Source: Deltaproteobacteria bacterium (GTDB lineage Bacteria > Desulfobacterota > Binatia > HRBIN30 > JACQVA1). Taken from it: a stretch of DNA of 33,175 nucleotides. Numbering within the stretch: position 1 is the first letter of the stretch; each line of letters begins with the position of its first letter. This document shows, piece after piece, positions 982-25,968 of the stretch. Location of the stretch: NCBI GenBank assembly GCA_016210005.1, contig JACQVA010000084.1, positions 1 through 33,175 of the forward strand. The letters are read 5' to 3'. The position numbers were made by a program, and so were the translations under genes. The notes below the pieces were generated by a model. The model saw nothing but the letters and a program-made list of their open reading frames with translations. It was not told the DNA's origin and searched no databases.

Positions 982-2133
982 CTAGACCTTGTAACGCTGC
1001 AGTAACTGGCGCGCGATCACCAGGCGCTGAATCTCGTTGGTACCTTCGCCGATGATCATCAGCGGGGCATCGCGATAGAAGCGCTCGACCGGAAACTCCT
1101 GCGTGTAGCCGTAACCGCCGAGAACGCGCATGGCTTCGGTGGCAACTTCCAGGCAGGTCTCCGAGGCGAACAGCTTGGCCATGCCAGCTTCGACATCGCA
1201 GCGCTCGCCACGGTCCTTCTTGTCGGCCGCGCGGTAGGTGAGCAGCCGCGCCGCGTCGATCTTAGTGGCCATGTCGGCAAGCTTGAGCTGGATGGCCTGA
1301 TGCTCGCAGATCGGCTTGCCGAAAGTCTCCCGCTGTTGCGCGTAGCGGATGGCCTGCTCGAAGGCGGCGGTGGCGACGCCGACGGCGCGGGCGGCGATGT
1401 TGATGCGGCCGACCTCCAGACCGCTCATGACCTGGCGAAACCCTTGCCCCTCCTTGCCGCCGAGCAAATTAGCCGCCGGTACGGCGTAGTCCTCGAAATT
1501 GACCTCGCAGGTTTCGATGCCCTTGTAGCCGAGCTTGCGCAAGTCGCGGCCGACAGTCAGTCCGGGTCCCTTTTCGCCGATGAACATGCTGATGCCTTTG
1601 TAGGGCGGATCGGCATGCACGTCGGTCTTGGCGGCGATGGCGTAGAGGGTGCCGTAGCGGGCGTTGGTAATGAACATCTTGCTACCGTTCAGGACGTAAG
1701 CGTCGCCGCGGCGCTCGGCGCTGGCGCGGATGCGCTGGACGTCGCTGCCGGCATGGGGTTCGGTCAGGCAGAGGACGCCGCGATGCTCGCCGCGCGCCAT
1801 CGCCGGCAGGTAGCGCCGCTGCTGCTCGGCGGTGCCGTGCACGCGCAGCATGTAAGCGAGCATGAGATGGGTATTGAGCACGCCGCTGAGGCTCATCCAG
1901 CCGCGGCACAACTCCTCGACCACCATGGCGTAGCTGGTGACGTCGAGGTCGAGGCCGCCGTACTCGGGGGCAATGGTCGCACCGAAAAGGCCCAACTCCT
2001 GCATCCGTGCCACCAGCGCGTGCGGATACTCGTCGCGATGCTCCAACTCGCTCGCCACCGGCAGTACCTCGCGTTCGACGAAGCGGCGGATGGTGGCCAG
2101 CAATTGCTCGCGAATCTCGACTGGGGTAGTCAC
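982..2133 (-). CDS. Acyl-CoA dehydrogenase
   Basis: The 383-residue flavoprotein has full family length. It should oxidise acyl-CoA thioesters to trans-2-enoyl-CoA with FAD, passing electrons to ETF in beta-oxidation or branched-chain amino acid breakdown. The N-terminal helical domain is followed by the FAD/substrate signature CLTEPHAGSDV near residue 125, the middle beta domain (YVLNGSKMFITNA), and the C-terminal helical domain with GGYGYTQEFPVERFYRDA. The catalytic base is Glu363 in IIGEGTNEIQR, the usual short-chain/medium-chain position. Translation starts at GTG (2133-2131) behind a strong AAGGAGG Shine-Dalgarno with a six-base spacer. The neighbours are unrelated: the gene is divergent from the transglutaminase-like membrane protein and convergent with the DUF4336 gene. 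Substrate chain length cannot be told from the sequence. Confidence 0.95.
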   Translation of the reverse strand: MTTPVEIREQLLATIRRFVEREVLPVASELEHRDEYPHALVARMQELGLFGATIAPEYGGLDLDVTSYAMVVEELCRGWMSLSGVLNTHLMLAYMLRVHGTAEQQRRYLPAMARGEHRGVLCLTEPHAGSDVQRIRASAERRGDAYVLNGSKMFITNARYGTLYAIAAKTDVHADPPYKGISMFIGEKGPGLTVGRDLRKLGYKGIETCEVNFEDYAVPAANLLGGKEGQGFRQVMSGLEVGRINIAARAVGVATAAFEQAIRYAQQRETFGKPICEHQAIQLKLADMATKIDAARLLTYRAADKKDRGERCDVEAGMAKLFASETCLEVATEAMRVLGGYGYTQEFPVERFYRDAPLMIIGEGTNEIQRLVIARQLLQRYKV

Positions 2134-2239
2134 GTGCAGCCTCCTTACCCGTGGGAAAGCCGCGCCTATGTGTCACTGTTGCAGGTTGATGGCAAGGCGG
2201 CCCGACTTGCCGCCACCGGGGCGGCTCTGTTACTCGAAC

Positions 2240-4492
2240 ATGGTGCGCTTCCGACGGTTTGGTTCGCTGGCCTGGGCTGTGGGTCTATTGCTCGCGGGGG
2301 CGCAGCTCGCCGCGGCGGCGGAGCGCACGCCGACCTCCGGCACCGAGGTGTTCACGGCCCGTGATGACGCGCGCCAGGGGCGCGAGAAGCCGGCGCTGGC
2401 GGCGACAACTTACTGGCGCGTGCAAGCTTTCGTGAAGGTGGCGCAGGCCGGCAGCGGCGCGCACGTGCAAATGTTGCTGCCGCTCTCCGACGCTCACCAG
2501 CAGATAAGCGCGCGTAGCTTGGCCGCATCGGCGATGGTATTTCGCGAGGAGCCGCAGGCCGGCAACCTGTGGGGTCATTGGACACTGCCGCAGGCCAGCG
2601 GTGGGCCAGTCGAGCTGGGCTACGAAGTCGTCGTGGCCAGCAGCGATTACGAGCGCCCGGTGCCGCGCACGGCGCTCAAGAGTTTCAGCGCGCCCGCCGA
2701 CGCGCATGCGGAGCTGCAGGCCTCGGCACTGATCCAGAGTGACGATCATGACCTCCGCCGGCGTGCCCACGAACTGATCAAAGATGCCCAAACGCTCGAT
2801 GCCGCGGTGTGGGCGCTGTTCCAGTACACAGCGGCATTCGTCAAGGGTGGCACGGCCGAGGCCAAGGCCGACGCGCGCACCGTGCTGCAACAGGAACGGG
2901 GCAGCAGCGCGGGCAAGGCTCGGCTGCTGGCCGCGTTGCTGCGCGCCGTGGGTATCCCCGCCCGCTTGGTCGGCGGTTTGAAGTTGGAGGATGCCAGTAA
3001 GAAGCGGGCGACCACTTCTTGGGTTGAAGCGCGCGTGGGCGCGGCCGGCGACAGCTGGGTCCCGCTCGATCCGGGCGGCGGCTACTTCGGCTGGCTGCCC
3101 CACAACTACCTGGCTTTGTACCGCGGCGATTTGCCGCTGATCGTTCACAGTGCGGAGCTCAGCCTCGAATACGGCTTCGTGGTGCATCAAGCGAGCCGTG
3201 AGGCGGCGCAGGCGGCCAACAGAGCCGCAGCCGGAGCGCCGCCGGCGGGCGTGCTGGCGGCCGGCCCCGAACAAGTGCGCACCACGGCCACCTACGTCGA
3301 GCGCCCGGTGGCCTCGGTGGTGTTGATTGCGGACCAGAGCGTACCTGAGGCAGTGAGCGACCGGATCGTCAAGGAGGCGCAGGAAGAGGAAATCGACGTG
3401 GTCTTGCTGCAAGCCCGCTTCGAGTCGCGCTACTTCCGCGAGCTCTACCTGCAGCGCCTGATCAACAACAACCTGACCTTGATTCGCCAGGCCAACGTGC
3501 TGCTCATCGCCACCGGCGACGATGCCGGCCTGTACGCGCTGCTGACGCTGGGCGAGAAGCAGATGGCGCTGGCGGATGCGCGCATCGTGATCGCGGGTGA
3601 TTTCCTGCAACCGGTGGGGGCGGTGATCGGGGTCGTGCTTCGGCGCCTAGTACAGGCCGGCGAGGTTGTCTTGGTGAATCGCCCGGCGAACTTGTTGGCG
3701 CTGTGGGAAATGACAAGAGCGAACGTCATCAATGGCGTGCCGATGGCGGAGGAAGCTCGCAAGTGGGATCTCCAGCCGCTGGTGGTGAGCCAACTGACGG
3801 ATGACGACCTCAGCCACTGGCGTCGCTTAGTGGTAGGCGCGTGGACCCGGGCAGTGCGCGCTCAAGTGCCGCTACAGGCGCTCAATCTGATCCTGGTGTT
3901 GCCGATCATCGCCGCGCTGATCGTGGTGGCGCGTACGGTGGTGGGACTCGAGACCTTCGGGATCTTTTCGCCGGTGATCGTGTCGCTGGCGTTCTTGACC
4001 ACGGGCCTGCGCTGGGGGGCCGCGATCTTTGCGGTCATTGTCGGTCTGGGAGCGTTGATGCGTGCCGGCTTGCAGCACCTGCGGCTGCAGCTGGTGTCAC
4101 GGCTGGCGATCTTGGTCGCCATGGTGGCGGGGGTGATGGCCGGGCTCACGGTCGTCGGCGCCTCCTTCGGCATCGGCGCGCTGATGAACGTAAGCATCTT
4201 CCCGATGGTGATCATGTCCAACGTGATCGAGAACTTCACCTCGTCGCAAGCCCAGTTCGGCACCCGCGAAGCCATCCGTCTGACGGTGAATACGCTGCTG
4301 CTGGCGACACTCTGCTATCTGGCGGTCGAGAGCACCGGCTTGCAGTCACTGGTGCTGGTGTTTCCGGAGATGTTGCTGGCGGCGATCGTGGTGGACGTGG
4401 CTTTGGGGAAGTGGCGCGGACTGCGGCTGCTCGAGTATCTGCGGTTCTTTGATCTCACTCGGCGGATGGAGAAGCCGTGGCGGCCGGTTTGA
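2240..4492 (+). CDS. Inactive transglutaminase-like protein fused to a multi-pass (7TM-type) membrane domain
   Basis: The 750-residue protein begins with a signal peptide (LAWAVGLLLAGAQLAAAAE). A periplasmic domain, a transglutaminase-like domain (about residues 175-300), a mixed linker domain and a C-terminal bundle of hydrophobic helices (about 543-735) follow. In the transglutaminase fold the nucleophile Cys is missing: the usual G.C..A..L block reads GSSAGKARLLAALLRAVGIP (residues 221-240). The active His before WVE is also replaced (TTSWVEARV, 258-266), while Asp277 in PLDP remains. This matches the known family of inactive transglutaminase-like proteins fused to seven membrane helices, usually encoded beside a RimK-like ligase, as here. 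A non-catalytic peptide-binding or scaffold role is inferred. ATG 2240 was chosen because the signal peptide starts there; the longer open frame upstream overlaps the divergent dehydrogenase. No clear Shine-Dalgarno is visible. Confidence 0.85.
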   Translation: MVRFRRFGSLAWAVGLLLAGAQLAAAAERTPTSGTEVFTARDDARQGREKPALAATTYWRVQAFVKVAQAGSGAHVQMLLPLSDAHQQISARSLAASAMVFREEPQAGNLWGHWTLPQASGGPVELGYEVVVASSDYERPVPRTALKSFSAPADAHAELQASALIQSDDHDLRRRAHELIKDAQTLDAAVWALFQYTAAFVKGGTAEAKADARTVLQQERGSSAGKARLLAALLRAVGIPARLVGGLKLEDASKKRATTSWVEARVGAAGDSWVPLDPGGGYFGWLPHNYLALYRGDLPLIVHSAELSLEYGFVVHQASREAAQAANRAAAGAPPAGVLAAGPEQVRTTATYVERPVASVVLIADQSVPEAVSDRIVKEAQEEEIDVVLLQARFESRYFRELYLQRLINNNLTLIRQANVLLIATGDDAGLYALLTLGEKQMALADARIVIAGDFLQPVGAVIGVVLRRLVQAGEVVLVNRPANLLALWEMTRANVINGVPMAEEARKWDLQPLVVSQLTDDDLSHWRRLVVGAWTRAVRAQVPLQALNLILVLPIIAALIVVARTVVGLETFGIFSPVIVSLAFLTTGLRWGAAIFAVIVGLGALMRAGLQHLRLQLVSRLAILVAMVAGVMAGLTVVGASFGIGALMNVSIFPMVIMSNVIENFTSSQAQFGTREAIRLTVNTLLLATLCYLAVESTGLQSLVLVFPEMLLAAIVVDVALGKWRGLRLLEYLRFFDLTRRMEKPWRPV

Positions 4493-5448
4493 GCGCGCGA
4501 CTGCGCTGGTTGCGCCACAACGTCCTGGGGATCAACCGGCGCAACCAGGAGCTGTTGCTGCGCTGCAACTCGCCGCGCCTGATCGCGCTGGTCGATCACA
4601 AGCTGCGCACCAAGACGGTGCTGGCGGCGCAGGGGATAGCGGTGCCGGCGACGTACGCGCAGTGCGCACGCGCGGGTGAATTGGTGGCACTGGCCGACGC
4701 CTGCGATCGCCAGCCGGAGTTCGTGCTCAAACCCGCCTGCGGTGCCGGTGGCGAAGGAATCGTGGTGATCGCCGGGCGCGACGGCGATCAGCTGGTCAAA
4801 GTCGGAGGTGGGCGGCTGAGCCGGCGCGACCTGCTGGCGCACGCCGCGGATGTGCTCAGCGGCGCCTTTGCACTCGGCCAGACGCACGACGAGGTGCTGA
4901 TCGAGCAGCGCTTGAAGACCGACGCGGCGCTGGCCCCGTTCTGCCCCGCGGGCGTGGCTGACTTGCGGGTGTTGGTGGTCTGGGGTGTGCCGCTGATGGC
5001 TATGCTGCGGCTGCCGACCCAGGCCTCGGAGGGCCGTGCCAACTTGCACGTGGGCGGTATCGGGATCGGGCTTAAGCTCGTGGATGGCTCGCCGGTTTAT
5101 GCCGTGTGGCGCGATCGCCCGGTCGAGCGCCATCCCGACACGCACCAGCCGCTGTGCGAGGTGCGCATCCCGGCCTGGCGCGAGCTGCTGGAGCTGGCCG
5201 CTCGCGCCTATGAGGCGGTGCCGTTGGGCTACCTGGGGGTGGACATAGTGATCGATGGGAGCGATGGGCCGATGATTCTTGAGTTGAACGCGAGGCCGGG
5301 CTTGAGTATTCAGTTAGCGAACCGGTGCGGTTTGCGTCCGTTGCTCGGCGCCCTGGCGCAGGAACAACCCGGGGCCGCCAAGCAGCTGGCCGCGGCGCAG
5401 CGGGTCGAGTTCGGGATCGCGCTGAACGAGCGTTATGGGGAAGGCTGA
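4477..5448 (+). CDS. Alpha-L-glutamate ligase-like ATP-grasp protein
   Basis: The 323-residue protein matches the RimK-related ATP-grasp subfamily often annotated as alpha-L-glutamate ligase-like. It has the typical N-terminal NVLGINRRNQELLLRCN, a VDHKLRTKTVLAAQGI helix, the glycine-rich nucleotide loop FVLKPACGAGGEGIVVI (82-98), and the C-terminal metal-binding stretch GYLGVDIVID...MILELNARPG, where the Asp, Glu and Asn of ATP-grasp enzymes are kept. Members use ATP to form an acyl-phosphate and join it to an amine, usually adding amino acids to a peptide or protein; the substrate here is unknown. The GTG start at 4477 lies inside the preceding gene (16-base overlap) behind a GGAG motif, implying translational coupling. 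The enzyme is presumably cytoplasmic and works with the membrane protein encoded before it and the L,D-transpeptidase encoded after it. Confidence 0.88.
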   Translation: MAAGLSARLRWLRHNVLGINRRNQELLLRCNSPRLIALVDHKLRTKTVLAAQGIAVPATYAQCARAGELVALADACDRQPEFVLKPACGAGGEGIVVIAGRDGDQLVKVGGGRLSRRDLLAHAADVLSGAFALGQTHDEVLIEQRLKTDAALAPFCPAGVADLRVLVVWGVPLMAMLRLPTQASEGRANLHVGGIGIGLKLVDGSPVYAVWRDRPVERHPDTHQPLCEVRIPAWRELLELAARAYEAVPLGYLGVDIVIDGSDGPMILELNARPGLSIQLANRCGLRPLLGALAQEQPGAAKQLAAAQRVEFGIALNERYGEG

Positions 5449-10527: not shown

Positions 10528-11547
10528 TTAGGATGCCGCGCCCTTTTCCTTCAAGATGTCGTCGATGATCTCCTGGAAGTTCTCGAATGGCACTGCCCCG
10601 GAGATGAAGCGGCCGTTGATGAAGAATGCGGGTGTGCCGTTGACGCCCACGGAGTTGCCGACCTCCACGTCTTTCTGCACGGCTTCGGCGTACTTATCGC
10701 TCGTCAGGCAGGTCTTGAATTTCTCGCTATCAAGTTTGAGGTCGGCCGCGTACTTCTCCAAGTCGGATTGCTGCAGCGCCTGCTGGTTCTTGAACAACGT
10801 GCCGTGGTACTCCCAGTACTTGCCCTGGTCGCCGGCGCAGCGAGCGGCCTCGGCTGCCTTCTGGGCGAAGGGATGGAAGCCCAGAGGATAGTCCCGGAAT
10901 ACCAGGCGCACCTTGTCCTTGTAAGTGCTGAGCACCTGCTCAACTGCTTGCTCAGCACGACTGCAATAGGGGCACTGGAAGTCGGAGAACTCGATGATGG
11001 TGATCGGTGCATTGGCTGGGCCGCGCGTGGGGCCGGTGCCGGGTACGTTCACCACCGGCGGCTTTATCTTGATGGAGACCTTAGCCTGCGAGCGCAGCCG
11101 ACCGACGTAGGTTTCGCGCATGGCCTCGATCCGAGCATTGCGGAGATGCTGGACCAGGGCTTCGCGGACCTCCTCGATCGGCTTCTCGATGCGGTCCTTG
11201 GCTTGCTCATACAGACTTTCCACCTCGGCGGAAGTCGGCTCAGAGACCTTGGCGGCGATCTCAGTCTCCAACAGTGCGTCGACCGAGACGCCTTTAGCCT
11301 TGGCCTCCTTTTCGAGCAGGCGCTGCATGATCAGCGCATCGACGCCTTCCTTTTTCGCGTCGTACATTTCCGACTCGATGGAAATGAGCTTGCCCTGAAC
11401 CAGCTTGCGCACATCGCCTTCGGTAATGGGCTTGCCGTCGACAGTGGCGAGAACGTCGCTGTCGGCGGCGCGCACCGCCGAAACCAACCCAGCCAGCGCC
11501 AAGCAGGCAGCCAGCGCCAATGTCGTTTGTTGCCGGGAAAACATCAT
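10528..11547 (-). CDS. DsbA-family thioredoxin-fold protein with SurA/PpiC-like N-terminal domain
   Basis: The 339-residue exported protein starts with a signal peptide (FSRQQTTLALAACLALAGL...). Residues about 30-160 look like the helical N-terminal domain of SurA-type chaperones: VLATVDGKPITEGDVRKLVQ, then LIMQRLLEKEAKAKG and a helix-rich EVESLYEQAKDRI. A linker leads to a DsbA/DsbG-like thioredoxin fold with IIEFSDFQCPYCSRAEQAVE (redox CPYC at 192-195), FRDYPLGFHPFA and the cis-Pro motif NGTPAFFING (Pro306). It probably makes or isomerises disulfide bonds in unfolded periplasmic proteins, with the N-terminal part holding the substrate. The tandem ATG at 11547/11544 sits behind AAAGGA; the first ATG gives the better spacing. 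A hairpin follows the stop. The window's Cys-containing secreted proteins are possible clients. Confidence 0.88.
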   Translation of the reverse strand: MMFSRQQTTLALAACLALAGLVSAVRAADSDVLATVDGKPITEGDVRKLVQGKLISIESEMYDAKKEGVDALIMQRLLEKEAKAKGVSVDALLETEIAAKVSEPTSAEVESLYEQAKDRIEKPIEEVREALVQHLRNARIEAMRETYVGRLRSQAKVSIKIKPPVVNVPGTGPTRGPANAPITIIEFSDFQCPYCSRAEQAVEQVLSTYKDKVRLVFRDYPLGFHPFAQKAAEAARCAGDQGKYWEYHGTLFKNQQALQQSDLEKYAADLKLDSEKFKTCLTSDKYAEAVQKDVEVGNSVGVNGTPAFFINGRFISGAVPFENFQEIIDDILKEKGAAS

Positions 11548-11670
11548 CGAATGGTCCTTTCTATTCGCTTCTCTTGCCGAATTCATTTTCTCTTTCGCCC
11601 GCCACCGGGCAAGTCGGCACCGCACGCGTGGTCGTAACTGGTGCCACACGAGCGCCGGCAACGCAAATGG

Positions 11671-12584: not shown

Positions 12585-13454
12585 TCAGCGCCGGGCGCGG
12601 CGACCGCACAGGCCCAGCAGCGCCGCAATAAGTGAAAGGGCGAAAGCGGGGCTCGGACGTTGAGATCCAACCGCACAGCCGCCATCCTCCCCGGTCGCGG
12701 TAAGGTCGTAACCGGGAGGGGGCGTGCCCGGGGCAGCGGTCGCCGGTGCAGCTGTTCGAGTAGGTCGCAGCGTCGGCGTTGGTTTCAGGGCGGTCGGTGT
12801 GGGGCTTCGGCGTGGAGCGGTTGCGGTGGGAGTCGGACGGGCGCTGGCCGTGGGGGTAGCGCTAGGGGCCGGTTCCGAGGTGACCGTCACTGCGCCGCTA
12901 ACGGCCTCGTCGATCGGTTGCAGACTATTGCCCGTATCACGCGCCAACACGTTGCTCAGCGTCAGGGGTATGTCGCCGGGCGGGGTCGCGGCGTCCACGC
13001 CGAAGGTGATACGCAACAGCGTCGCTGCGGGCAAAGCATTACGGCGCGCTGGATCGGTAACCACAAGGTCCAGGCGCTGATCGTCAGCGATCGTGTCGCC
13101 GTTTGCGATGATCAGCGAGAAGGCATCCAACCCAGCATGGCCGTCTGGATTTTGTTCGATTGCGTCCGGGACACCGTCGAGATTGCTGTCAGTGGTATCA
13201 AAGCTCAGTCCCGAGAAATCCAGACTGAATTGCAGCGATGCAATCTCGTCGGCCCCACCCGCCGAGTGGTCGTCGTCGGCGGGCACAAAAAGCACCGGTA
13301 CCGACACGGTTCCGCCCGCGCGTGCCTCGGTGTCGCGTACCACGACGTCTAACCCGGCCTCGGTCTGCGGCTGGCCGCCGTGCGCTCCCGGTGAGGCCAC
13401 CAAAAGGGCCACAGCAAGCGACGTTGACGTTATCGAGAGCCTCATCCGCATCAT
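12585..13454 (-). CDS. Secreted cohesin-like protein with Pro/Thr linker and Cys-TM-Arg C-terminal tail
   Basis: The 289-residue protein has a signal peptide (MRLSITSTSLAVALLVASPGAHGG). The domain at about 35-192 has cohesin-like beta strands: LDVVVRDTEARAGGTVSVPV, IASLQFSLDFSGLSFD, LLRITFGVDAATPPGDIPLTL and AVSGAVTV. It contains a calcium-loop-like DSNLDGVPDAIE (89-100). A Pro/Thr-rich linker (about 195-250) follows. The tail reads EDGGCAV, then a short hydrophobic helix (269-283), then RRARR. A Gly-Gly-Cys before a membrane helix and a basic end recalls MYXO-CTERM-like sorting signals in which the Cys is processed and lipid-linked; that reading is inferred. Three ATGs are clustered (13454, 13451, 13445); AGGA eight bases before the first favours 13454. 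The gene is divergent from the four-domain secreted protein. Confidence 0.75.
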   Translation of the reverse strand: MMRMRLSITSTSLAVALLVASPGAHGGQPQTEAGLDVVVRDTEARAGGTVSVPVLFVPADDDHSAGGADEIASLQFSLDFSGLSFDTTDSNLDGVPDAIEQNPDGHAGLDAFSLIIANGDTIADDQRLDLVVTDPARRNALPAATLLRITFGVDAATPPGDIPLTLSNVLARDTGNSLQPIDEAVSGAVTVTSEPAPSATPTASARPTPTATAPRRSPTPTALKPTPTLRPTRTAAPATAAPGTPPPGYDLTATGEDGGCAVGSQRPSPAFALSLIAALLGLCGRRARR

Positions 13455-13754: not shown

Positions 13755-15593
13755 ATGAAGAGAGGAAGATCAGTAGCGGTCGGGGTAGCACTATGTGGGC
13801 TCTTGGGCATGGGCGCGCCTGCGCGGGCCCAACTTCACGGCGATTTGCTTCCCGGTTTTAGTGCGAGCTGCACTATTCTGCGAGGGGCGAACCAGGTGAC
13901 CGTGCAAGTCCGCGCCTTCAACGGGTCGAACGTGGACCTGACCGGGCTGACCGCGTCGCACCTGACCATGGAGAGCTCGGGAACCGCCACGCTCGAGATT
14001 GTAACCATGCCGGTGATGCGCCGCGTGCTGATTAGAAACAACGCCCATAGTTTCAAGTGGCAGGGCACTCTTTCGGGTGAAGGCACGATCGCGATTTCAA
14101 CCGATGTGACCGCGGAGACGCCGAGCGGCCAGACCGTGACCACCGGTCTCGCATTTTGCGAAGTCATTACGGTGACGGTGCCTCCGACTGAGACGCCGCG
14201 GGTTGCGCCAACGGATCGCCCTACGCGCACGCCGGAACCGACCAGAACTGCGCGCCTGGAGGCAACACCTGAGCCTACACGCACCCCACGCCTGACTTCG
14301 ACACCGGAACCAACAGACACACCGCCGCCAACGAGGACTGCGCGCACTCGGTCAACTCCGACGGAGCGGCCGACACGTGAAGAGAAGGCGACGCGCACGC
14401 CGGTCCCGCCCCTGGCGACCCGTACCCGAGTACCTCCGACCAATACACCGGCTGTTGATCTCGGGGGGCTGAACGCTAGTTGCTTCACTTTCGTAGATGG
14501 TAGTGATGTTTCCGTCACGCTGCTGGTAGGCAACGGCACCGGGGTGGATCTGGAAGACGTCACGCCGCTCGTCCCGACCATCCACTCCACTGGGTCGGCA
14601 GTTCTGCAGCTTGGGAGCGCCGTGCCCGCGCGATTCTCGCGAGTGGCTGCGGGCAACAACGCACGTTTTCGGTGGGATGGGCAGATCTCCGGCGAAGGGC
14701 AGAGTGCCGCAAGCCTCAGCGCGCGCGTTACCGTTAACGGTGAGACCGCCGAGGTGCAGGCCGATTGCGAGGCCGTGTCTTCGACGGTGCAATCGACACC
14801 CACGCCGCGCGTTACGCGCACACCCGTGCCCGCGGCCCCGACACGCACGGCTTCGGCGACGCCAACGGTAAATCTCGGTGCCTTCGGGGCGAGCTGCCGA
14901 CTTGTTAAGGCCGGCGACCATGTGAGCGTCTTGCTTGTTGTGCGGAATGATACTGGCACGGCCGTCACCGCGGTGCGGCCGTCCAGCTTGGATATTAACG
15001 CCACGGACGGCGTTTCGTTTACTATCTCCAACGGTCCTGCCCCAGGGGTGTACAACCTGCTGGCGAGCGGAAACCGAGCGACGTTCAAGTGGAACGGGCA
15101 GTTGAGTGGCGCCGGCAATGTCATCATTTCGGTCGGCGCTTCCGGATTTGCCGCGGGCGGGGCAGAGGTAGCAACGGGAACGGTTGACTGTGGGGCTGTC
15201 GGAATCGAGGCACCACCAGTGCCGGCATTTGACCCGAATCAGCTGATTGGCCTGTGTACCGCGACAGTCGTTGATGGCAAGGTCTTGGTGTCGTTCCGCT
15301 TGGAAGTGTTCAACGGTACCGGCGCCGAGTTGACCAACCTGACTCCGTTTGGTCCGGATATTGAGACGACTGGATCGGTGGAACTGACCATGACGACTGG
15401 CCCGGAGCCAGGTTCGCTCCGACTGCTGCGCGCCGATCGCCGTGCCCGCTTCAAGTGGCAGGGATACGGTGGCGGCCGGGGGCTGGCGTTCATCCATGTT
15501 GGCGTGAACGCGACCGGGCCGAACGGCGAGGCGGTGAGTACTGGCGTGATCGAGTGTAATACGCTGGTGGTGCCTCCAAAGCCGCGCGGATAG
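13755..15593 (+). CDS. Secreted protein with four copies of a Cys-pair beta domain joined by Thr/Pro linkers
   Basis: The 612-residue protein starts with a signal peptide (MKRGRSVAVGVALCGLLGMGAPARA). It holds four copies of a domain of about 100-110 residues. Each begins with a [SG]xC element (C39, C243, C381, C501) and ends with a second Cys (C135, C338, C479, C601), 95-100 residues apart. Each carries an F[KR]W[QDN]G motif (100-104, 305-309, 444-448, 566-570), usually just before a [LI]SG[EA]G turn, and an early NG[ST]/N.TG segment. Copies 1-2 and 2-3 are separated by Thr/Pro/Arg-rich linkers (about 142-234 and 346-371); copies 3-4 are close together. Within each copy the Cys pair probably forms a disulfide bond. 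I do not recognise the domain; it resembles bacterial beta-sandwich surface domains. ATG 13755 follows GGGGGA at seven bases. A strong terminator follows. Confidence 0.85.
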   Translation: MKRGRSVAVGVALCGLLGMGAPARAQLHGDLLPGFSASCTILRGANQVTVQVRAFNGSNVDLTGLTASHLTMESSGTATLEIVTMPVMRRVLIRNNAHSFKWQGTLSGEGTIAISTDVTAETPSGQTVTTGLAFCEVITVTVPPTETPRVAPTDRPTRTPEPTRTARLEATPEPTRTPRLTSTPEPTDTPPPTRTARTRSTPTERPTREEKATRTPVPPLATRTRVPPTNTPAVDLGGLNASCFTFVDGSDVSVTLLVGNGTGVDLEDVTPLVPTIHSTGSAVLQLGSAVPARFSRVAAGNNARFRWDGQISGEGQSAASLSARVTVNGETAEVQADCEAVSSTVQSTPTPRVTRTPVPAAPTRTASATPTVNLGAFGASCRLVKAGDHVSVLLVVRNDTGTAVTAVRPSSLDINATDGVSFTISNGPAPGVYNLLASGNRATFKWNGQLSGAGNVIISVGASGFAAGGAEVATGTVDCGAVGIEAPPVPAFDPNQLIGLCTATVVDGKVLVSFRLEVFNGTGAELTNLTPFGPDIETTGSVELTMTTGPEPGSLRLLRADRRARFKWQGYGGGRGLAFIHVGVNATGPNGEAVSTGVIECNTLVVPPKPRG

Positions 15594-15615: not shown

Positions 15616-15651
15616 ACAACGGGCCGGCAGCCGATGCTGCCGGCCCGTTGT
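15616..15651 (+). terminator. Strong intrinsic-type terminator
   Basis: A 15-base perfect stem, ACAACGGGCCGGCAG (15616-15630) and CTGCCGGCCCGTTGT (15637-15651), has a six-base loop and is followed by a moderately T-rich TGCTTCTA. It lies 22 bases after the stop of the four-domain protein and separates that unit from the next operon. Confidence 0.85.
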
Positions 15652-18746: not shown

Positions 18747-20351
18747 GTGCGCTCCCTGGCCTGGCTGCTGGTGCTGCTGCTTGGCTGCGGTGCGCCGCAA
18801 CCAAGCGATCTGCCGCCGGACTATCTTCGCCTTGCCGGCGTCGACGACGTGCCCACACTCGACCCCGCGCTCGGTTACGACACCACCTCGTGGCTCTTCG
18901 AGCAGATGCTGTTCAATACCCTGCTCGACTACGATGACGCGGGCGGCCTCGTACCCGAACTCGCAACTTCGTGGGAGGTGAGCCCGAACGGGCTGATCTA
19001 CAGCTTCAATCTGCGCCACGACGCCCGCTTTACCAACGGCCGGCCGGTGTTGGCTGCCGACGTGAAGTTCACGCTCGAACGTGTCCTCAATCCCAAGACA
19101 CGCTCGCAGGGCATCGAGTTCTTCACCTCGATTGCCGGCGCCGGTGAATTCATCGCCGGAGGTGCAACCGAGGTCACGGGCATTCACGTGGTCGGCGACC
19201 AGGAGTTGCGGATCCAACTCCTGCGCCCTGACCCACTGCTGTTGCACAAACTCGCCTTGCAGTTTGCCGCCGTCACACCGCGCGAGGAGGTGGAACGTTG
19301 GGGCGAGGACTTCACCGAGCACCCGACCGGCAGCGGCCCGTTTATCTTGCAGGCATGGGCGCGCGGGCGGCGCTTGGTGTTGCAACGCAACCCGAACTAC
19401 TTCGTCGCCGGCCAGCCGCGGCTGGCCGGGGTGGTGCGGTTGGTCGGCGTTAGCGACCAGCTGGCGTGGTTCAAGTTCGAGGCGGGCGAGTTGGATGTCA
19501 CGGGAATTCCAGCGGCGGAATTTCCGCGCGTGATCGCCGACCCGCGCTACGCATCGCTCTTGCGCCAGGAGACCGCGTTGCGCACGCAGTACCTCGGCCT
19601 CAACTGCGAGTTGCCGCCGTTGACCGATCACCGGGTGCGCCAGGCGGTCAATCACGCCGTCAACAAGGAGAAGCTGTTACAACTGATCAACAACCGTGGC
19701 GTCGCGGCCCGGCGCATCGTGCCGCCCAACATGCCCGGTTACGAGGCTGAGATTGCCGGCTATGAATTCGACCCCGCGCGCGCCCGCACGTTGCTGGCCG
19801 AAGCCGGCTACCCCGAGGGCTTCGCCACCGCTCTCTGGGTGCGCTCGGACGAAGACGGCCGGCGCATGGCCCAAGCGGTTCAGCAGGATCTCGCTGATGT
19901 CGGCATTCGCGCTGAGATCCGGCCGATCGCCTGGGGGCCGTTTCTCCAGGCGGTAAAGAGCCCGGGCTTGGTGCCGATGTTCCAACTCGGCTGGGAGGCC
20001 GACTTCCCTGACCCGAGCAACTTCCTCGAGGTCCTGTTTCACTCCAAGAACCGCGGCTCCAACAACGATGCCTTCTACGCAAGCGCCGCGGTTGATCAAC
20101 TGTTGGATCGCGCTGCCGTCACCGTCGCCGCGGCGGCGCGGGTGGCGGCGTTGCAGCGGGCCGAGCAGTTGATCATGGCCGATGCCCCTTGGGTGCCGTT
20201 GTACCACCCAGTGGCGTACCAGGTCGTCAGTGAGCGCGTGCGTGATTTTCGCCTCAACCCGCTGCGGCCGCCACGCCTGGAGCGAGTGTGGCTGGCGCCT
20301 ACTAGCGCCGGGGTGCCGGCACCGACTCAACCTGCCCCGAGCGCATCTTGA
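18747..20351 (+). CDS. Extracellular solute-binding lipoprotein, family 5 (DppA/OppA-like)
   Basis: The 534-residue protein has a lipoprotein signal (WLLVLLLGCG, lipidated Cys14) and a full family 5 solute-binding domain. Visible elements include VPTLDPALGYDTTSWLFEQM, LVPELATSWEVSPNGLIYSF and LRHDARFTNGRPVLAADVKF, with FTEHPTGSGPFILQAWARGR and DHRVRQAVNHAVNKEKLLQL further on. It should capture peptides or similar solutes in the periplasm and deliver them to the two permeases encoded just before it. The GTG start lies one base after the DppC-like stop; no independent ribosome-binding site is needed if the genes are coupled. Its last 50 bases overlap the 3' end of the convergent coiled-coil lipoprotein gene. 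The natural ligand cannot be told from the sequence. Confidence 0.93.
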   Translation: MRSLAWLLVLLLGCGAPQPSDLPPDYLRLAGVDDVPTLDPALGYDTTSWLFEQMLFNTLLDYDDAGGLVPELATSWEVSPNGLIYSFNLRHDARFTNGRPVLAADVKFTLERVLNPKTRSQGIEFFTSIAGAGEFIAGGATEVTGIHVVGDQELRIQLLRPDPLLLHKLALQFAAVTPREEVERWGEDFTEHPTGSGPFILQAWARGRRLVLQRNPNYFVAGQPRLAGVVRLVGVSDQLAWFKFEAGELDVTGIPAAEFPRVIADPRYASLLRQETALRTQYLGLNCELPPLTDHRVRQAVNHAVNKEKLLQLINNRGVAARRIVPPNMPGYEAEIAGYEFDPARARTLLAEAGYPEGFATALWVRSDEDGRRMAQAVQQDLADVGIRAEIRPIAWGPFLQAVKSPGLVPMFQLGWEADFPDPSNFLEVLFHSKNRGSNNDAFYASAAVDQLLDRAAVTVAAAARVAALQRAEQLIMADAPWVPLYHPVAYQVVSERVRDFRLNPLRPPRLERVWLAPTSAGVPAPTQPAPSAS

Positions 20352-21366
20352 AGATGAGATCCGCCACCCGCTGCGCGGTTTTTAGCTTGGCGTTCAATTC
20401 CTCGTTGTTGCGCACCATGGCCGCCACCTGCTGGCGCAGCTCGGCGTTCTCGGCGCGGGCCTCTTCCATCGCTGAGACCGGTACCGCGACCTGCGCCGCA
20501 CGCGTGCGCGCCACCGTCACCTCTTCCTGCAGCGCCGCCAGCTGGCTTTGCAGCGCAGCCTCGCGCTCGCGGCTGGCAGCCAGGTCGCGCTCCGCGCTCG
20601 CGACGATCTCTTCCTGTCGCGCTTGCAGCTCGTTCAAGCGCTGCTGCAGCTCGGGGTCCGGTGCAGGCGCGTCGGCTGGCGGGGCCGGGGCTTGCGCCTG
20701 CGCCTGCAATTCAGTCAGCTGCTGAGCGAGGCGCTCGCGCTCGGCGCGCTCTTTGTCGAGTTGAGCGCGGAGCGCATCGACTTCGCTGCGCGCCTGCCCG
20801 AGAGCAGCCTCATCAACGGGCGGATGCAAAGGGGCGGTCGAGGTTTCCTGTTTGAGGCGGCCCAACTCACCTTCGACGTTCTCGCGGCGCAGCCGCTCGC
20901 GGGCCAGCTCATCCTGCAAGCTGGTCACTTGCTGGCGCGCCTGCTGTGCCTGGCTCTGGGCACTCGCCAACTGCTGCCGCGCGGCTTCGGCTTCCGTTTG
21001 AGCGGCTTGCAGCACGGCGGGCGTAACGCCGGTGTCCGCCGTTGCGGCGGCGGGGGCCGCGTTCACGGCGGTGCTCAGGCGCGCCACTGTCGTCTCCAGC
21101 TCCTTGCCGTGGGCCTGGAGGCGCCGGACCTCGCCGTGCAAAACGTCAACCTGCTCCTCCCGCTGAGCCAAGCGCTCGCGCAGCATGGCGTTCTCTTCTT
21201 CCTGGCGCTTGAGCACGGTATCCGCCTCGTCAACCGCAAGCACCGCAGGTTCCGGTGCGAGGGCGACGACAGGCGGCGGGGCAGGGGGCGGTGTGACCGT
21301 TGGGCTACAAGCCGCGAGGCTCAGTACCGCGCCGAGGAGCAGCGTTCTCGCCTGATGTGAGCGCAT
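20302..21366 (-). CDS. Coiled-coil lipoprotein of unknown function
   Basis: The 354-residue protein has a lipoprotein signal (MRSHQARTLLLGAVLSLAAC, lipobox LAAC). A Pro-rich spacer (TVTPPPAPPPVVALAPEP) comes next, then almost 270 residues of charged helix with Glu, Gln, Arg and Leu in heptad order, for example LKRQEEENAMLRERLAQREE and LDKERAERERLAQQLTELQA. Two Ala/Pro-rich breaks interrupt the coil. The mature protein is probably anchored to a membrane and rod-like, perhaps spanning the periplasm. No enzymatic motif is present. ATG 21366 was chosen because the signal starts there; there is no Shine-Dalgarno, but a promoter-like pair sits directly upstream. The gene lies 39 bases behind the NRDE gene on the same strand, and its 3' end overlaps the solute-binding protein gene by 50 bases. 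Confidence 0.8.
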   Translation of the reverse strand: MRSHQARTLLLGAVLSLAACSPTVTPPPAPPPVVALAPEPAVLAVDEADTVLKRQEEENAMLRERLAQREEQVDVLHGEVRRLQAHGKELETTVARLSTAVNAAPAAATADTGVTPAVLQAAQTEAEAARQQLASAQSQAQQARQQVTSLQDELARERLRRENVEGELGRLKQETSTAPLHPPVDEAALGQARSEVDALRAQLDKERAERERLAQQLTELQAQAQAPAPPADAPAPDPELQQRLNELQARQEEIVASAERDLAASREREAALQSQLAALQEEVTVARTRAAQVAVPVSAMEEARAENAELRQQVAAMVRNNEELNAKLKTAQRVADLIFKMRSGQVESVPAPRR

Positions 21367-21372
21367 GGCCGC

Positions 21373-21402
21373 AAAGTACAAAGAAGTGGGCAGGGTTGTC
21401 TA
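21373..21402 (-). promoter_or_regulatory. Possible promoter giving a leaderless lipoprotein mRNA
   Basis: On the minus strand TAGACA (21402-21397; five of six matches to TTGACA) and TACTTT (21378-21373; three of six) are 18 bases apart. The -10 ends six bases before the ATG at 21366, which has no Shine-Dalgarno. Confidence 0.35.
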
Positions 21403-21405
21403 GCG

Positions 21406-22152
21406 CTAATTCGGTAGGGGCACCGGCTCGAACCGGCTCCGGCACGGTGCCCCCGCGGCGTGGAAATAGTGGTAACGGCGGTCGCGGCGCGCAAACAGCA
21501 CGACCGTCGCTGAGCAGGTGCCGTAGCGGGGCGTGTGGACGCAGAGGTTATTCGGCGGCAGCTCGGCGCGGGGGTCGAGCGGGGTCGAGTGGTCCGACAG
21601 AATGGGCTGGAGCGCATGCACCAGGCTCTGCGGCCCTTCGCCGGCCGTGACCGCCTCAAACAGTCGGGCCGACTTTGCGATCCGCGGACAGGTCGGATCG
21701 TTCAGTTGCAGATTGGTCAACAGGTGTACGCCCGGTTCGAGGGGGGTGATCGCGATCGCGGCCTCGGCGTTGTGCGCCACGTAGGCCGCTGCCGGCGTGG
21801 CCAGCAAGAGGTTGAAGCCGTTGTAGCGGTCGCCGTGCTCGCCGCGGAGGCTTTCCAGAGCGGCCTCCAGCGAGCGGCACTCGAGCATTGCCAGCGCCAA
21901 CAAGCCGCGCGAGCGGCGGCTGGGATCGACGCCCGCGGGATGGCGGCGATTGAGCAGGCCCACCACCAGGCCGGCCTCGTTCAGCCCCAGCCAGGTACCA
22001 CCGGCCACCAGATCCTGTCCCGCCATAACCCAAGGGTCGGCGGCAATCAGTTGCGGCGGCGCGGAGGCGCGCTCGTAGAATTCGTCGCGGTTGGCCGCCA
22101 CCACCAAGGGATAGTCGGCAAAGCGCTGCAGGTACAACGCCAGTGTGCACAC
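21406..22152 (-). CDS. NRDE family protein (TANGO2-like)
   Basis: The 248-residue protein carries the family's name motif, AANRDEFYERASAPPQ (NRDE at 21-24), followed by VAGGTWLGLNEAGLVVGLLN and a GDRYNGFNLLLA segment. The C-terminal CVHTPRYGTCSATVVLF is also typical. The family is related to N-terminal-nucleophile hydrolases, and members normally begin Met-Cys-Thr-Leu. Starting at GTG 22152 gives exactly MCTLALYLQRF, placing a Cys at position 2 that could become the nucleophile after Met removal. The longer frame to 22197 lacks family similarity and was rejected. The function in bacteria is unclear; eukaryotic TANGO2 is linked to heme or lipid handling. The gene is divergent from the MoxR gene and has a strong promoter ending seven bases before its start. 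Confidence 0.88.
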   Translation of the reverse strand: MCTLALYLQRFADYPLVVAANRDEFYERASAPPQLIAADPWVMAGQDLVAGGTWLGLNEAGLVVGLLNRRHPAGVDPSRRSRGLLALAMLECRSLEAALESLRGEHGDRYNGFNLLLATPAAAYVAHNAEAAIAITPLEPGVHLLTNLQLNDPTCPRIAKSARLFEAVTAGEGPQSLVHALQPILSDHSTPLDPRAELPPNNLCVHTPRYGTCSATVVLFARRDRRYHYFHAAGAPCRSRFEPVPLPN

Positions 22153-22159
22153 GGGGCGG

Positions 22160-22188
22160 ATTATAGGAACACGACTGTCGAGCCGCAA
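22160..22188 (-). promoter_or_regulatory. Sigma-70-like promoter of the NRDE gene, possibly leaderless
   Basis: On the minus strand TTGCGG (22188-22183) and a perfect TATAAT (22165-22160) are 17 bases apart. The -10 is followed by seven bases and then the GTG start at 22152. Transcription should begin at or next to the start codon, and no Shine-Dalgarno is present. Confidence 0.6.
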
Positions 22189-22263
22189 CGCGACCACCTT
22201 CGTTGTCTTGACCGGAACCCTGTGTTAGCGTCCGCGCGGCTCGCTCGCCTGACTGGAGACCCT

Positions 22264-23229
22264 ATGTTTGTTTCGATCGAGGACGTGATCGAGCGCTTTG
22301 GACGCGAAAAGTACATCTGCAGCCGGCGCATCGCCACGGTCGTATTTCTGGCCGGCCGGCTGGGTAAGCCGATCTTGGTCGAGGGGCCGGCAGGAGTCGG
22401 GAAGACCGAGCTGGCCAAGGTCGTCGCCGCCACGCTAGGGCATGAGCTCATCCGTCTCCAGTGTTACGAAGGGCTCGACGAGGCCAAGGCGCTCTACGAA
22501 TGGGAGTACGCTAAGCAGCTGCTCTATACCCAAATCCTCAAAGACAAGATCAGCGAGGTCGTCGGCGGCGCCCAGAGCTTGAAGCAGGCGGTGGATAACA
22601 TCGGCAAAGAGGAGGACGTCTTCTTTTCCGACCGCTTCATTCTGCCGCGGCCGCTGCTGCGCTCGATTTCGGCCCCCCATCCCACCGTGCTGTTGATCGA
22701 CGAGATCGACAAGGCCGACGCCGAATTCGAGGCCTTTCTGCTCGAGGTGCTGAGCGATTTCCAGGTCAGCGTTCCCGAATTGGGCACGCTGCGCGCCCGG
22801 CACATCCCGTTCGTGGTGTTGACCAGCAACAACGCTCGCGAGATGTCCGATGCACTCAAACGGCGTTGCCTGCACCTGTACATCGATTTTCCGCCGCTCG
22901 AGCAGGAGCTGGAGATCGTGCGCCTCAAGGTGCCCGGCATTGATGAGAGTTTGGCGCAGCAGGTGGTCGCCGCCGTGCAACGCATCAGACAGATCGACCT
23001 GAAGAAGGTCCCGAGCATCAGCGAGACCCTCGACTGGGCCAAGGCCCTGACGCTGCTGAACGTGACGCACCTAGACGCAGCGCTGGTGAACGATACGCTG
23101 AGCGCCATTCTCAAGTACGAGGGCGATATCCGCAAGGCGCAGGATGAATTAAAGGATTACCTCCAACGCCAGAAGTCCAACGCGCCGACCGCCGCCGACA
23201 ACAGCGGCAACAAGGATTTCCTCCACTGA
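22264..23229 (+). CDS. MoxR-type AAA+ ATPase
   Basis: The 321-residue ATPase has a Walker A loop (EGPAGVGKTELAK, about 40-52) and a Walker B motif (TVLLIDEIDKAD, 141-152). The helix-2 region and a sensor 1 segment (FVVLTSNNAREMSDALKRRC) are also typical of MoxR proteins, which work with VWA proteins to insert metal cofactors or remodel enzyme complexes. The best match is to the subgroup paired with CoxE-like VWA proteins, involved in maturing molybdenum- or copper-containing enzymes in some species; its client here is unknown. ATG 22264 follows GGAG at about five bases. The long frame running back to 21535 is antisense to the NRDE gene and was discarded. The VWA partner starts 22 bases after its stop. 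Confidence 0.92.
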   Translation: MFVSIEDVIERFGREKYICSRRIATVVFLAGRLGKPILVEGPAGVGKTELAKVVAATLGHELIRLQCYEGLDEAKALYEWEYAKQLLYTQILKDKISEVVGGAQSLKQAVDNIGKEEDVFFSDRFILPRPLLRSISAPHPTVLLIDEIDKADAEFEAFLLEVLSDFQVSVPELGTLRARHIPFVVLTSNNAREMSDALKRRCLHLYIDFPPLEQELEIVRLKVPGIDESLAQQVVAAVQRIRQIDLKKVPSISETLDWAKALTLLNVTHLDAALVNDTLSAILKYEGDIRKAQDELKDYLQRQKSNAPTAADNSGNKDFLH

Positions 23230-23251
23230 GCCCAGTGGGGCAGGGCACGGC

Positions 23252-24661
23252 ATGGAGGAGAAGATCATCGAGTTCGCCGCGCTCCTACGGCAGAACGGCC
23301 TGCGCGTGTCCATGGCCGAGCACATGGACACCTTCCACGCCCTGCAACTAGTCGGGGTCGAAAACCGCCGCATCTTCAAAGACACGCTGCGCGCCACCAT
23401 GGTCAAGCGCAGCGTCGACGCGCCGGCCTTCGATGAGTTGTTCGAGCTTTACTTCACCGGCCTGGGCGAGATCATCAAAGGCAGCGCTGAAGCTACTCAA
23501 GGGGCGCTGAGTCTGAGCAGCGCCCAGCTCCAGGCGCTGATGGAACAGCTGTCGCAGATGCTGCAGGAGATGGGTATCGAACTGTCCGAACTGGCGCGCG
23601 CGCTGCTGTCGAACGACACCGGCCAGCTCGAAAAGATGTTGCGTGAAGCAGCGCGCCAGGCCGAGGTCGGACAGATAGAAAGGGCCTTTCAAGAAGGGCG
23701 CTACGCTCACAGCTTGGCCCAACAGCTCGGCCTCGGCGACCTCGCCCAGGAGATCGATGGCTTACGCCGGCAGTTGGCGCAAGCCGGGCTCGATCCGGAG
23801 CGGGCCGAGCAGCTCCAGCGCTTCCTCGAACGGCGGTTGCAGGACCTGAGCGAAATCATCAAGCGTGCGGTGCGGGCCGAGTTGGCTAAGCGTGATCCCA
23901 CGCAGCGCGACAGCGAGCGCATGCGTAGCTTGGCCGAGAAAAGCTTCTACTACCTCTCGGAAGACGAAATCCGCCGCATGAAAGAAGCCGTCACCAAGCT
24001 GGCGCAGCGGCTCAAGAACGTGGTCGCGATTCGCCGCAGCCGCGCCAAGCGCGGCAAGTTCGACCTCAAAGACACGCTGCGCAAGAACCTGCAGTACGGT
24101 GGCGTGCCGTTCAAGATACAGTTCGACCGCCGCGTGCGCGACAAGCCGCAGGTGGTCATCTTGTGCGATGTCTCCGACTCGGTTCGCAACGTCTCGCGCT
24201 TCATGCTGCAGTTTGTGTACTCCTTGCAGGACCTTTACTCGCGCGTGCGCAGCTTCATCTTCGTCAGCGAAATCGGCGAGATCACCCACCTCTTCGAGGA
24301 GCAGGAGATCAACGAGGCCATCGACCAGGCCCTCACCGGCAACATCATAAATGTGTTCGCCCACTCCGACTTCGGCCGCGCCTTCCGCGGCTTCCACCGC
24401 GACTATCTCGGTTGCGTGAACAACAAGACGACGGTGATCATCCTCGGCGACGCGCGCAACAATTACAACCTACCCCACGAATGGGTGCTCAAGGACGTGC
24501 GCGGGCGTGCCAAGCAGGTGATTTGGCTCAATCCCGAAAACCGCATGACCTGGGGCTTCGGCGATAGCGAAATGGATCGTTACCTGCCGCACTGCGATTT
24601 GGTCGAGGAATGCCGCAACCTCAACCAGCTCTATAAGGTCATTGACCGCTTGGTGGCCTGA
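23252..24661 (+). CDS. CoxE-like VWA domain protein, partner of the MoxR ATPase
   Basis: The 469-residue protein has an N-terminal helical region (EEKIIEFAALLRQNGLRVSM), a long helix-rich middle (about 80-240) and a C-terminal VWA domain. The metal-ion-dependent adhesion site is visible as LCDVSDSVRNVS, with Asp306, Ser308 and Ser310 in the D-x-S-x-S pattern. Further VWA elements follow: SFIFVSEIGEITHLFEE, TGNIINVFAHSDFGRAF and TTVIILGDARNNYN. Such proteins act as adaptors that bind a client through the metal site while the MoxR ATPase supplies force. The gene starts 22 bases after the ATPase stop behind a G-rich site, so the two form one unit. No cytoplasmic client gene is adjacent. Confidence 0.9.
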   Translation: MEEKIIEFAALLRQNGLRVSMAEHMDTFHALQLVGVENRRIFKDTLRATMVKRSVDAPAFDELFELYFTGLGEIIKGSAEATQGALSLSSAQLQALMEQLSQMLQEMGIELSELARALLSNDTGQLEKMLREAARQAEVGQIERAFQEGRYAHSLAQQLGLGDLAQEIDGLRRQLAQAGLDPERAEQLQRFLERRLQDLSEIIKRAVRAELAKRDPTQRDSERMRSLAEKSFYYLSEDEIRRMKEAVTKLAQRLKNVVAIRRSRAKRGKFDLKDTLRKNLQYGGVPFKIQFDRRVRDKPQVVILCDVSDSVRNVSRFMLQFVYSLQDLYSRVRSFIFVSEIGEITHLFEEQEINEAIDQALTGNIINVFAHSDFGRAFRGFHRDYLGCVNNKTTVIILGDARNNYNLPHEWVLKDVRGRAKQVIWLNPENRMTWGFGDSEMDRYLPHCDLVEECRNLNQLYKVIDRLVA

Positions 24662-24732
24662 CTCGCGGAAGAAAGGGATTGACCTCGCCAAACCTTTCTG
24701 CGCAGAATGCCAGCACCGGCAGGGAGCGGACG

Positions 24733-25248
24733 ATGAGTTCGGACGAAGCAGTACTGATGAGCGTCGGCGGATTGACTCTCGATCCGGTCACCAAGACGCC
24801 TATCGTCATCCTCAAGGATCCGGACAATAAGCTGAACCTGCCGATCTGGATCGGGCTGCTCGAAGCCACCGCCATGGCGACCGAGCTCGAGGGTATCAAG
24901 ATGGCGCGGCCGATGACGCACGATCTGCTGCGCACGGTTATCGACGAGTTGGGTGCGCGGGTGGAATGCATCGAAATCACCGACCTGAAGGACAATACCT
25001 ATTTCGCGGTGATTCACCTGCGGGTGAACGGCGCCAATCATCAGATCGATTCGCGCCCCAGCGACGCCATCTCGTTGGCGCTGCGCACCAAGAGCCCGAT
25101 CTATGTGGCCAAGCGCGTGCTCGAAACCTCGAGCGTCCTGCAGCAGATGGAGGAAGGAACCGAGACCAATCTCTCCAACGTCGCGCGCGACAAGTGGGCC
25201 GAAATCCTCGAGAAGATGACCCCCGACGACTTCAAGTACAAGATGTGA
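24733..25248 (+). CDS. DUF151 / bifunctional nuclease family protein
   Basis: The 171-residue protein fits the bifunctional nuclease (DUF151) family throughout. VGGLTLDPVTKTPIVILKD and LNLPIWIGLLEATAMATELE come first, followed by RPMTHDLLRTVIDELGARVE, YFAVIHLRVNGANHQIDSRP and SDAISLALRTKSPIYVAKRV. Plant and bacterial members have been reported to cut both RNA and DNA, but the role in most bacteria is unclear. No signal peptide is present. ATG 24733 follows AGGGAG with a six-base spacer, which favours it over the in-frame start at 24679. It lies 71 bases after the VWA gene and 42 bases before the TPR gene, so it may be read with either. Confidence 0.92.
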   Translation: MSSDEAVLMSVGGLTLDPVTKTPIVILKDPDNKLNLPIWIGLLEATAMATELEGIKMARPMTHDLLRTVIDELGARVECIEITDLKDNTYFAVIHLRVNGANHQIDSRPSDAISLALRTKSPIYVAKRVLETSSVLQQMEEGTETNLSNVARDKWAEILEKMTPDDFKYKM

Positions 25249-25290
25249 TCGCTGCCGCCATCACACCCGCCGCTCGCTCACTATAGTTCC

Positions 25291-25968
25291 GTGGCTCGCA
25301 CTACCCGTATTCACCGCAAGGACCTCAAGCGTCCTGATGAGTTCGTCACCATCAGTGCCCAGGCACTCGCGTGGCTGCGCGCCAATCAGCGGGCGGTCGG
25401 TTGGGCCGCTGGCGGGATTGCGGCCGCCATGCTCGCGAGCGTGGCCTTTGTCGCCGTGCGCCAGGCGCGCGAGCGCGATGCCAACGCCGATCTCGGCCGC
25501 GCACTGGTGCCTTACCGCGACGCCAAGACATCGGCCGATGCCGCTAGCCAATTGGCTGAGGTTGCCCGCCGTTGGAGCTCGACCTCCGCCGGCCAGGTCG
25601 CCAAGCTAATGGCGGCCAGTACCGAGATCCGCAACGACAATCCCGACACCGGTATCGTCGGTCTCCAAGAGGCCTTGGCGCTGCCGAGTCTACCGGGCTA
25701 CCTAAAGCAGCAAGCACTTCTTGGCTACGGCTACGCCTTGGAAAAGAAGAGCGAGTTGGGCGAGGCGGCAAGCAAGTACGCCGAGGCCGCCGGCCTCGAT
25801 GGTCCGTACACTGCCCAAGCGCTGGCGGCTGAAGCGCGGGCGCGCAAGGCACTGGGGCAGGGTGATCAGGCGCGAGCGGTGTACGAAAGGCTCAAGAAGG
25901 ATTTCCCGGAGGCAGCCGAGCGCGAGCAGATCGACGACCGGCTAGGTGCCGCGGCCAACTTTCCATAA
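25291..25968 (+). CDS. Membrane-anchored TPR-like protein (YfgM/TPR_21 type)
   Basis: The 225-residue protein has a cytoplasmic N-terminus of about 35 residues (RTTRIHRKDLKRPDEFVTIS...), one membrane helix (VGWAAGGIAAAMLASVAFVA, about 36-56), and a periplasmic part made of helix pairs rich in Ala and Leu. TPR-like repeats are visible in QALLGYGYALEKKSELGEAA and TAQALAAEARARKALGQGDQ. The layout matches YfgM-like proteins, which act as ancillary factors of the Sec translocon and periplasmic folding. That role is inferred from the layout. The GTG start at 25291 has no clear Shine-Dalgarno. It follows the DUF151 gene by 42 bases and is convergent with the dGTPase gene. Confidence 0.75.
   Translation: MARTTRIHRKDLKRPDEFVTISAQALAWLRANQRAVGWAAGGIAAAMLASVAFVAVRQARERDANADLGRALVPYRDAKTSADAASQLAEVARRWSSTSAGQVAKLMAASTEIRNDNPDTGIVGLQEALALPSLPGYLKQQALLGYGYALEKKSELGEAASKYAEAAGLDGPYTAQALAAEARARKALGQGDQARAVYERLKKDFPEAAEREQIDDRLGAAANFP

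Follow-up and report, generated by a model that had tools for sequence, protein, structure and literature searches.

The stretch of DNA analysed here (the window, 33,175 nucleotides) encodes a 612-aa secreted protein carrying four copies of a Cys-paired, Ig-like domain, which we read, at a probability of roughly 0.5, as an exported non-catalytic scaffold whose Cys-clamped domains gather extracellular proteins of the lineage. The domain matters chiefly because it points to a specific protein as the possible substrate of a bacterial lysyl oxidase; in relatives it is fused to a lysyl oxidase, ends a Lys-repeat protein and occurs on rhodanese-domain proteins. The lysyl-oxidase fusion lies outside the window, in genomes of a sister family, and is the most informative fact about the domain.

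The protein is read from an open reading frame with an ATG start at 13755-15593 of the forward strand. Its parts and the surrounding features are as follows:

13755-15593, + strand: gene of the four-domain secreted protein, 612 aa, from the ORF reading, with a 55% identical ortholog at the syntenic place in a second genome (G001)
13755-13829, + strand: Sec signal peptide, likely cleavage APARA/Q (residue 25/26), from the sequence
13854-14180, + strand: domain copy 1, Cys39/Cys135, FKWQG, from motif and alignment, with an AlphaFold2 model at pLDDT 93.6
14181-14465, + strand: linker 1, Thr/Pro/Arg-rich, from composition
14466-14789, + strand: domain copy 2, Cys243/Cys338, FRWDG, from motif and alignment
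14790-14879, + strand: linker 2, Thr/Pro-rich, from composition
14880-15212, + strand: domain copy 3, Cys381/Cys479, FKWNG, from motif and alignment
15213-15239, + strand: short Pro-containing joint between copies 3 and 4, low pLDDT in the pair model
15240-15578, + strand: domain copy 4, Cys501/Cys601, FKWQG, from motif and alignment
15616-15651, no strand assigned: perfect 16-bp inverted repeat with a 4-nt loop, directly past the stop codon, without a T-run and not scored as a terminator
12585-13454, - strand: divergent neighbour with a signal peptide, possible cohesin-like domain, Thr/Pro linker and MYXO-CTERM-like tail (GGCAV...LSLIAALLGLCGRRARR), from the sequence
20302-25968, no strand assigned: conserved block with an AAA ATPase (21535-23229), a CoxE-type VWA protein (23252-24661) and others, also flanking the lysyl-oxidase loci of relatives

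Each copy spans about 110 aa and holds a Cys pair enclosing an F[KR]W[QDN]G motif, which gives the eight domain Cys in four pairs that the original prediction had described. The predicted Cys spacing of 95-100 residues was borne out at 96, 95, 98 and 100 for copies 1 to 4, and the motifs start at residues 100 (FKWQG), 305 (FRWDG), 444 (FKWNG) and 566 (FKWQG). The arrangement likewise agrees with what had been proposed: Thr/Pro/Arg-rich linkers part copies 1 and 2 (~95 aa, about residues 143-237) and copies 2 and 3 (~30 aa, about 344-375), and copies 3 and 4 are adjacent, with about 10-13 residues between them. Pairwise identity among the four copies, aligned over their full length, is 27-34%, with positions for Cys, Val, Asn, Phe, Trp and Gly common to all. 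When a profile built from three copies was used to score the fourth, the left-out copies reached 62-79 bits, compared with best scores of 8.7-14.5 bits among 2000 shuffles per copy, so the four-fold repeat is not a product of chance. Because DNA-level repeats in the gene are negligible, FKWQG codons aside, the duplications that produced the copies must be old.

A first scan of genome contigs with the four window copies returned no relative. Surveying 148 genomes of the class, we found the Cys-pair form in seven genomes only, all of one order, two of them in the window's family (f1) and five in the sister family (f3; records include Deltaproteobacteria bacterium OFTM157, JAJCZJ010000104, uncultured bacterium RBC016, CADEER010000051, and bacterium Co_bin.149, JAUIGL010000110); a sample of 395 genomes of the phylum added Cys-less relatives only. 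The window's own genome has no domain copies beyond the four. Across the 29 copies from the seven genomes, two Cys (Cys6 and Cys102) and one Asn (Asn23) are invariant (29/29). The motif is strict only in the window and reads FKWGG, FIWKG, FEWGG, FDFQG or FDWSF elsewhere, and the Lys of FKW is not conserved across the wider family. We considered an isopeptide bond formed by a Lys-Asn(-Asp/Glu) triad and dropped it, since Asn23 is invariant yet the 29 copies contain no invariant Lys. We infer instead that the two Cys form a disulfide in each copy, probably joining the regions of the first and last strands.

An AlphaFold2 model of copy 1, computed from an alignment of the four window copies alone, contains strands only (mean pLDDT 93.6, pTM 0.82). 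In structural comparison it gave a best Z of 10.9 over 102-104 residues at 2.2-2.4 Å, and the top matches are Ig-like and appendage domains (a TRAP subunit, the COPI gamma and adaptin appendages, and transglutaminase C-terminal barrels). On this model, we are confident in predicting an Ig-like beta-sandwich, which is an ordinary fold; as Ig-like domains are versatile, it gives no function. A model of copies 3 and 4 together, whose input included related pairs from three further loci (L069-L071), shows two beta domains, with residues 112-122 at pLDDT < 50 and a pTM of 0.48. The poorly modelled linking segment and low pTM leave the relative orientation of the two copies unfixed, as at a flexible joint, and do not support a rigid pair.

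The original prediction had called the domain unassigned, with no named family known for its pattern. This held in the sense that no curated cut-off was reached: the window copies had no significant match among Pfam, NCBIfam or PDB sequences, the 29-copy profile had nothing significant among PDB sequences, and the best Pfam score over all 29 copies was to DUF7507 (E = 0.012, with weak matches in 3 of 29 copies, below cut-off). It did not hold in the sense of an isolated domain, as the fold is Ig-like and there are Cys-less relatives. HMM searching from the copies reveals Ig-repeat proteins of the DUF11/DUF7507 kind; the 29-copy profile matches such repeats in other classes at E values of 1e-8 to 1e-10, none of them with the Cys pair, but hhalign placed the domain profile on one DUF11 stretch at only 35% probability. 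We discarded a PDB match to 8zvk (E = 6.6e-6), which covers the Thr/Pro linker only, and sub-threshold matches to LpxB, Porin_3 and Pgp3_N, which are biologically implausible. DUF11 (PF01345), DUF7507 (PF24346) and CARDB (PF07705) share with the domain an Ig-like beta-sandwich repeated in secreted proteins, a conserved Asn after a V-x-V strand and the pattern '..GP.P..L..G....F.W....G.G'. They differ in that the Cys pair is invariant in the window domain and absent at the same positions in these distant relatives, and in that no member of the domain reaches a curated cut-off. Given the Cys-less proteins that match the profile, and DUF11 and DUF7507 as the nearby Pfam names, we regard the domain as a Cys-stapled offshoot of an Ig-like repeat that is common in bacteria. 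What is new is the Cys-stapled, lineage-specific form; the underlying kind of repeat is known.

We next consider export and location. The signal peptide is of the signal peptidase I type. The sole Cys outside the domain pairs, Cys14, lies inside it, and the signal peptide of the G001 ortholog, which ends in MMRRAWVSASVAVLVGSLAFGSRVSA/Q, has no Cys, making a lipobox unlikely. Reading the sequence of the protein, which ends in PPKPRG, for an anchor, we found no sorting tail, C-terminal helix, transmembrane segment or lipobox. The earlier proposal of a modular surface or matrix protein therefore fares unevenly: modularity and secretion agree with the signal peptide and the Thr/Pro linkers, whereas an anchor is missing, and the surface or matrix is a plausible location only.

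The G001 ortholog, from the same family, is 55% identical, keeps the four-copy layout and sits at a syntenic locus. At both loci the divergent neighbour is of similar build and the downstream genes agree, with a small conserved gene followed in our listing by a peptide-type ABC transporter and the AAA ATPase/CoxE-type VWA block. The divergent neighbour has no PF00963 match, although PF00963 cohesins are present elsewhere in the genome; the counterpart in G001 stays just under the TIGR03901 cut-off of 20, at 19.0 bits. A DsbA-like thioredoxin protein with a SurA-like N-terminus is encoded 2-3 kb upstream (10528-11661, - strand) and is conserved in G001. It could be the disulfide source for the window protein; DsbA-like proteins are common. 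Elsewhere in the window (1937-5448), a 7TM/transglutaminase-like protein adjoins a sugar-transfer-associated ATP-grasp protein.

Four of the f3 genomes (G003, G005, G007 and G009) encode proteins of 761-775 aa (stop-to-stop frame) that run from a signal peptide through one domain copy, a Thr/Pro/Arg linker of 172-179 aa and two adjacent copies to a lysyl oxidase. The two fusions scanned match PF01186 at E = 2e-35 and 1e-36, and alignment of a fusion to human LOXL2 (5ze3, E = 9e-28) pairs the copper-binding HxHxH, the Lys of GHK and the Tyr of DVY (DxY). Residue types essential in lysyl oxidase include the copper HxHxH and the Lys and Tyr of the LTQ cofactor (PMC4448552). The enzymes of these relatives keep the catalytic residues and are predicted to act as amine oxidases on lysine. 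The AAA/CoxE block found downstream of the window gene also adjoins the lysyl-oxidase loci. PF01186 has no match in the window protein, the window's whole genome or G001. Linkers of the fusions contain 0 Lys and 125 Arg in 702 residues. Linker 1 of the window protein has 28% Thr, 24% Pro, 15 Arg and 1 Lys in 96 aa, and since its linkers have almost no Lys, the window protein is itself unlikely to be a lysyl-oxidase substrate. In two of these genomes (G005 and G009), we also observed secreted proteins in which EF-hand/dockerin-like repeats and two rhodanese domains are combined with a single C-terminal Cys-pair copy (L038:2947-4365 and L041:7943-9853).

In all four genomes, the next gene on the same strand as the fusion encodes a secreted protein of exact 20-aa repeats:

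L037:10956-12839: RKPT repeat protein beside a domain-bearing lysyl oxidase
L038:11885-13009: RKPT repeat protein beside a domain-bearing lysyl oxidase
L039:10050-11843: RKPT repeat protein beside a domain-bearing lysyl oxidase
L040:10670-11488: RKPT repeat protein beside a domain-bearing lysyl oxidase

The unit reads R-T-R-K-P-T-K/S-T-x-R-P-T-R-T-P-I-x-x-x-x, and where the contig is complete the protein ends in one Cys-pair domain copy. RKPT recurs exactly every 20 residues, with 21, 7, 20 and 12 repeats seen. Lys occupies position 4 in every repeat counted, a constancy that is partly by construction because the repeat-finding pattern includes this Lys, which is not so for the unbroken 20-residue spacing; flanking codons vary, and three of the four genomes have a second Lys at position 7. 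Lys is scarce in the other Thr/Pro linkers that we sampled from 800 kb of the fusion genomes. Strong repeat matches occur only in the fusion genomes, with weak ones in G011, where the fusion gene is cut by the contig end. The remaining genomes of the order, including those with unrelated lysyl oxidases, gave no match to the repeat, and neither did the window genome or G001. Since fusion and repeats are confined to one family, they represent one phylogenetic event without independent replication.

Because its genome lacks both lysyl oxidase and repeat protein, we favour reading the window protein as a non-catalytic scaffold. It would consist of four Ig-like beads on flexible, extended Thr/Pro/Arg linkers, with a disulfide probably clamping each bead, and export beyond the periplasm is assumed. 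The domain would probably work as a binding or assembly module, gathering exoproteins into one matrix or surface layer. In relatives, the lysyl oxidase would probably convert the evenly spaced lysines of the repeat protein next to it into allysine, leading to cross-links, and the shared domain would hold enzyme and substrate together; the window genome would keep the scaffold only, without enzyme and repeat protein. Against the scaffold reading, the window protein has no anchor or known matrix motif. The copy tree, built from the 29 copies, joins window copy 1 to copy 1 of the fusions with support (90/92) below the starred level; window copies 2-4 cluster together.

Connective tissue in animals is cross-linked by lysyl oxidases, and the relatives' loci invite an analogy with the animal elastin/collagen matrix, as the enzyme adjoins a Lys-bearing, extended repeat protein. 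The repeat differs in being Thr/Pro/Arg-rich (RKPTKTxRPTRTP) and unrelated in sequence, and is absent from the window genome. We propose only tentatively, as a doubtful extension of the scaffold reading, that the relatives hold a bacterial counterpart of the lysyl-oxidase/elastin system, with an oxidase, a repeat substrate bearing one or two lysines per 20 residues and a shared disulfide-clamped docking domain, of which the window protein would be a scaffold branch. In a survey of the family, prokaryotic lysyl oxidases were mostly single-domain proteins and were judged unlikely to cross-link bacterial collagen-like proteins (PMC4448552); our literature search for bacterial lysyl-oxidase substrates found nothing beyond that paper. 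With four genomes pairing an intact, domain-bearing lysyl oxidase with a domain-bearing neighbour of periodic Lys, the substrate question becomes directly testable.

The absence of lysyl oxidase from both the window genome and G001 also suits a different account, in which the window protein would serve as a surface adhesin or stalk protein and bind something external, for instance a polysaccharide or a second cell, its tie to lysyl oxidase being domain ancestry only. Adhesins are usually built in this way, with Ig-like beads on Thr/Pro stalks, four copies would give avidity, and a divergent neighbour with a sorting-tail-like end is conserved alongside. Known Ig-like stalk adhesins carry isopeptide or ester cross-links (e.g. 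PMC12617251, PMC10619420); they share with the window protein secreted Ig-like beads and an internal covalent bond, predicted here, but the window domain has two Cys in place of Lys-Asn/Asp. The protein lacks an anchor of its own and matches no ligand-binding family, and the recurrence of its domain on enzymes and a repeat protein in related organisms suits an internal assembly role, so that we consider an adhesin possible but doubtful.

The flanks, syntenic with the lysyl-oxidase loci, could instead mark the gene as a relict, a former fusion whose catalytic domain and substrate gene are gone and which now drifts or is redundant, as the clustering of copy 1 with copy 1 of the fusions and the joint absence of enzyme and repeat protein would also allow. 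We think this unlikely: a 612-codon frame, eight domain Cys and a layout kept in a 55%-identical ortholog argue for selection, and the oxidase may have been gained in f3 rather than lost from the window's lineage. We give very little credence to the copies being inert spacers, stable Ig-like filler lending secreted proteins length and rigidity. DUF11-like repeats commonly serve as spacers and the copies have diverged to 27-34% identity, but a single terminal copy, where a spacer would be useless, is frequent on the rhodanese and Lys-repeat proteins.

Two lysyl-oxidase loci outside the fusion genomes may include further Lys-bearing partners, although these are suggestive only. In G012, a secreted protein of 25-aa repeats rich in KPHKPHKPQK (L182:14228-14827) is encoded about 6 kb from a lysyl oxidase (L182:7041-8726), and in G002 a lysyl oxidase has its own Lys-Pro-Thr-rich C-terminal tail (PPKPTRPPKPT; L183:7323-8801). 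Other bacterial lysyl oxidases, in G004, G006 and G010, have Arg-only tails. Near L105 there is also a Lys-rich ORF, which is histone-like and perhaps spurious in part.
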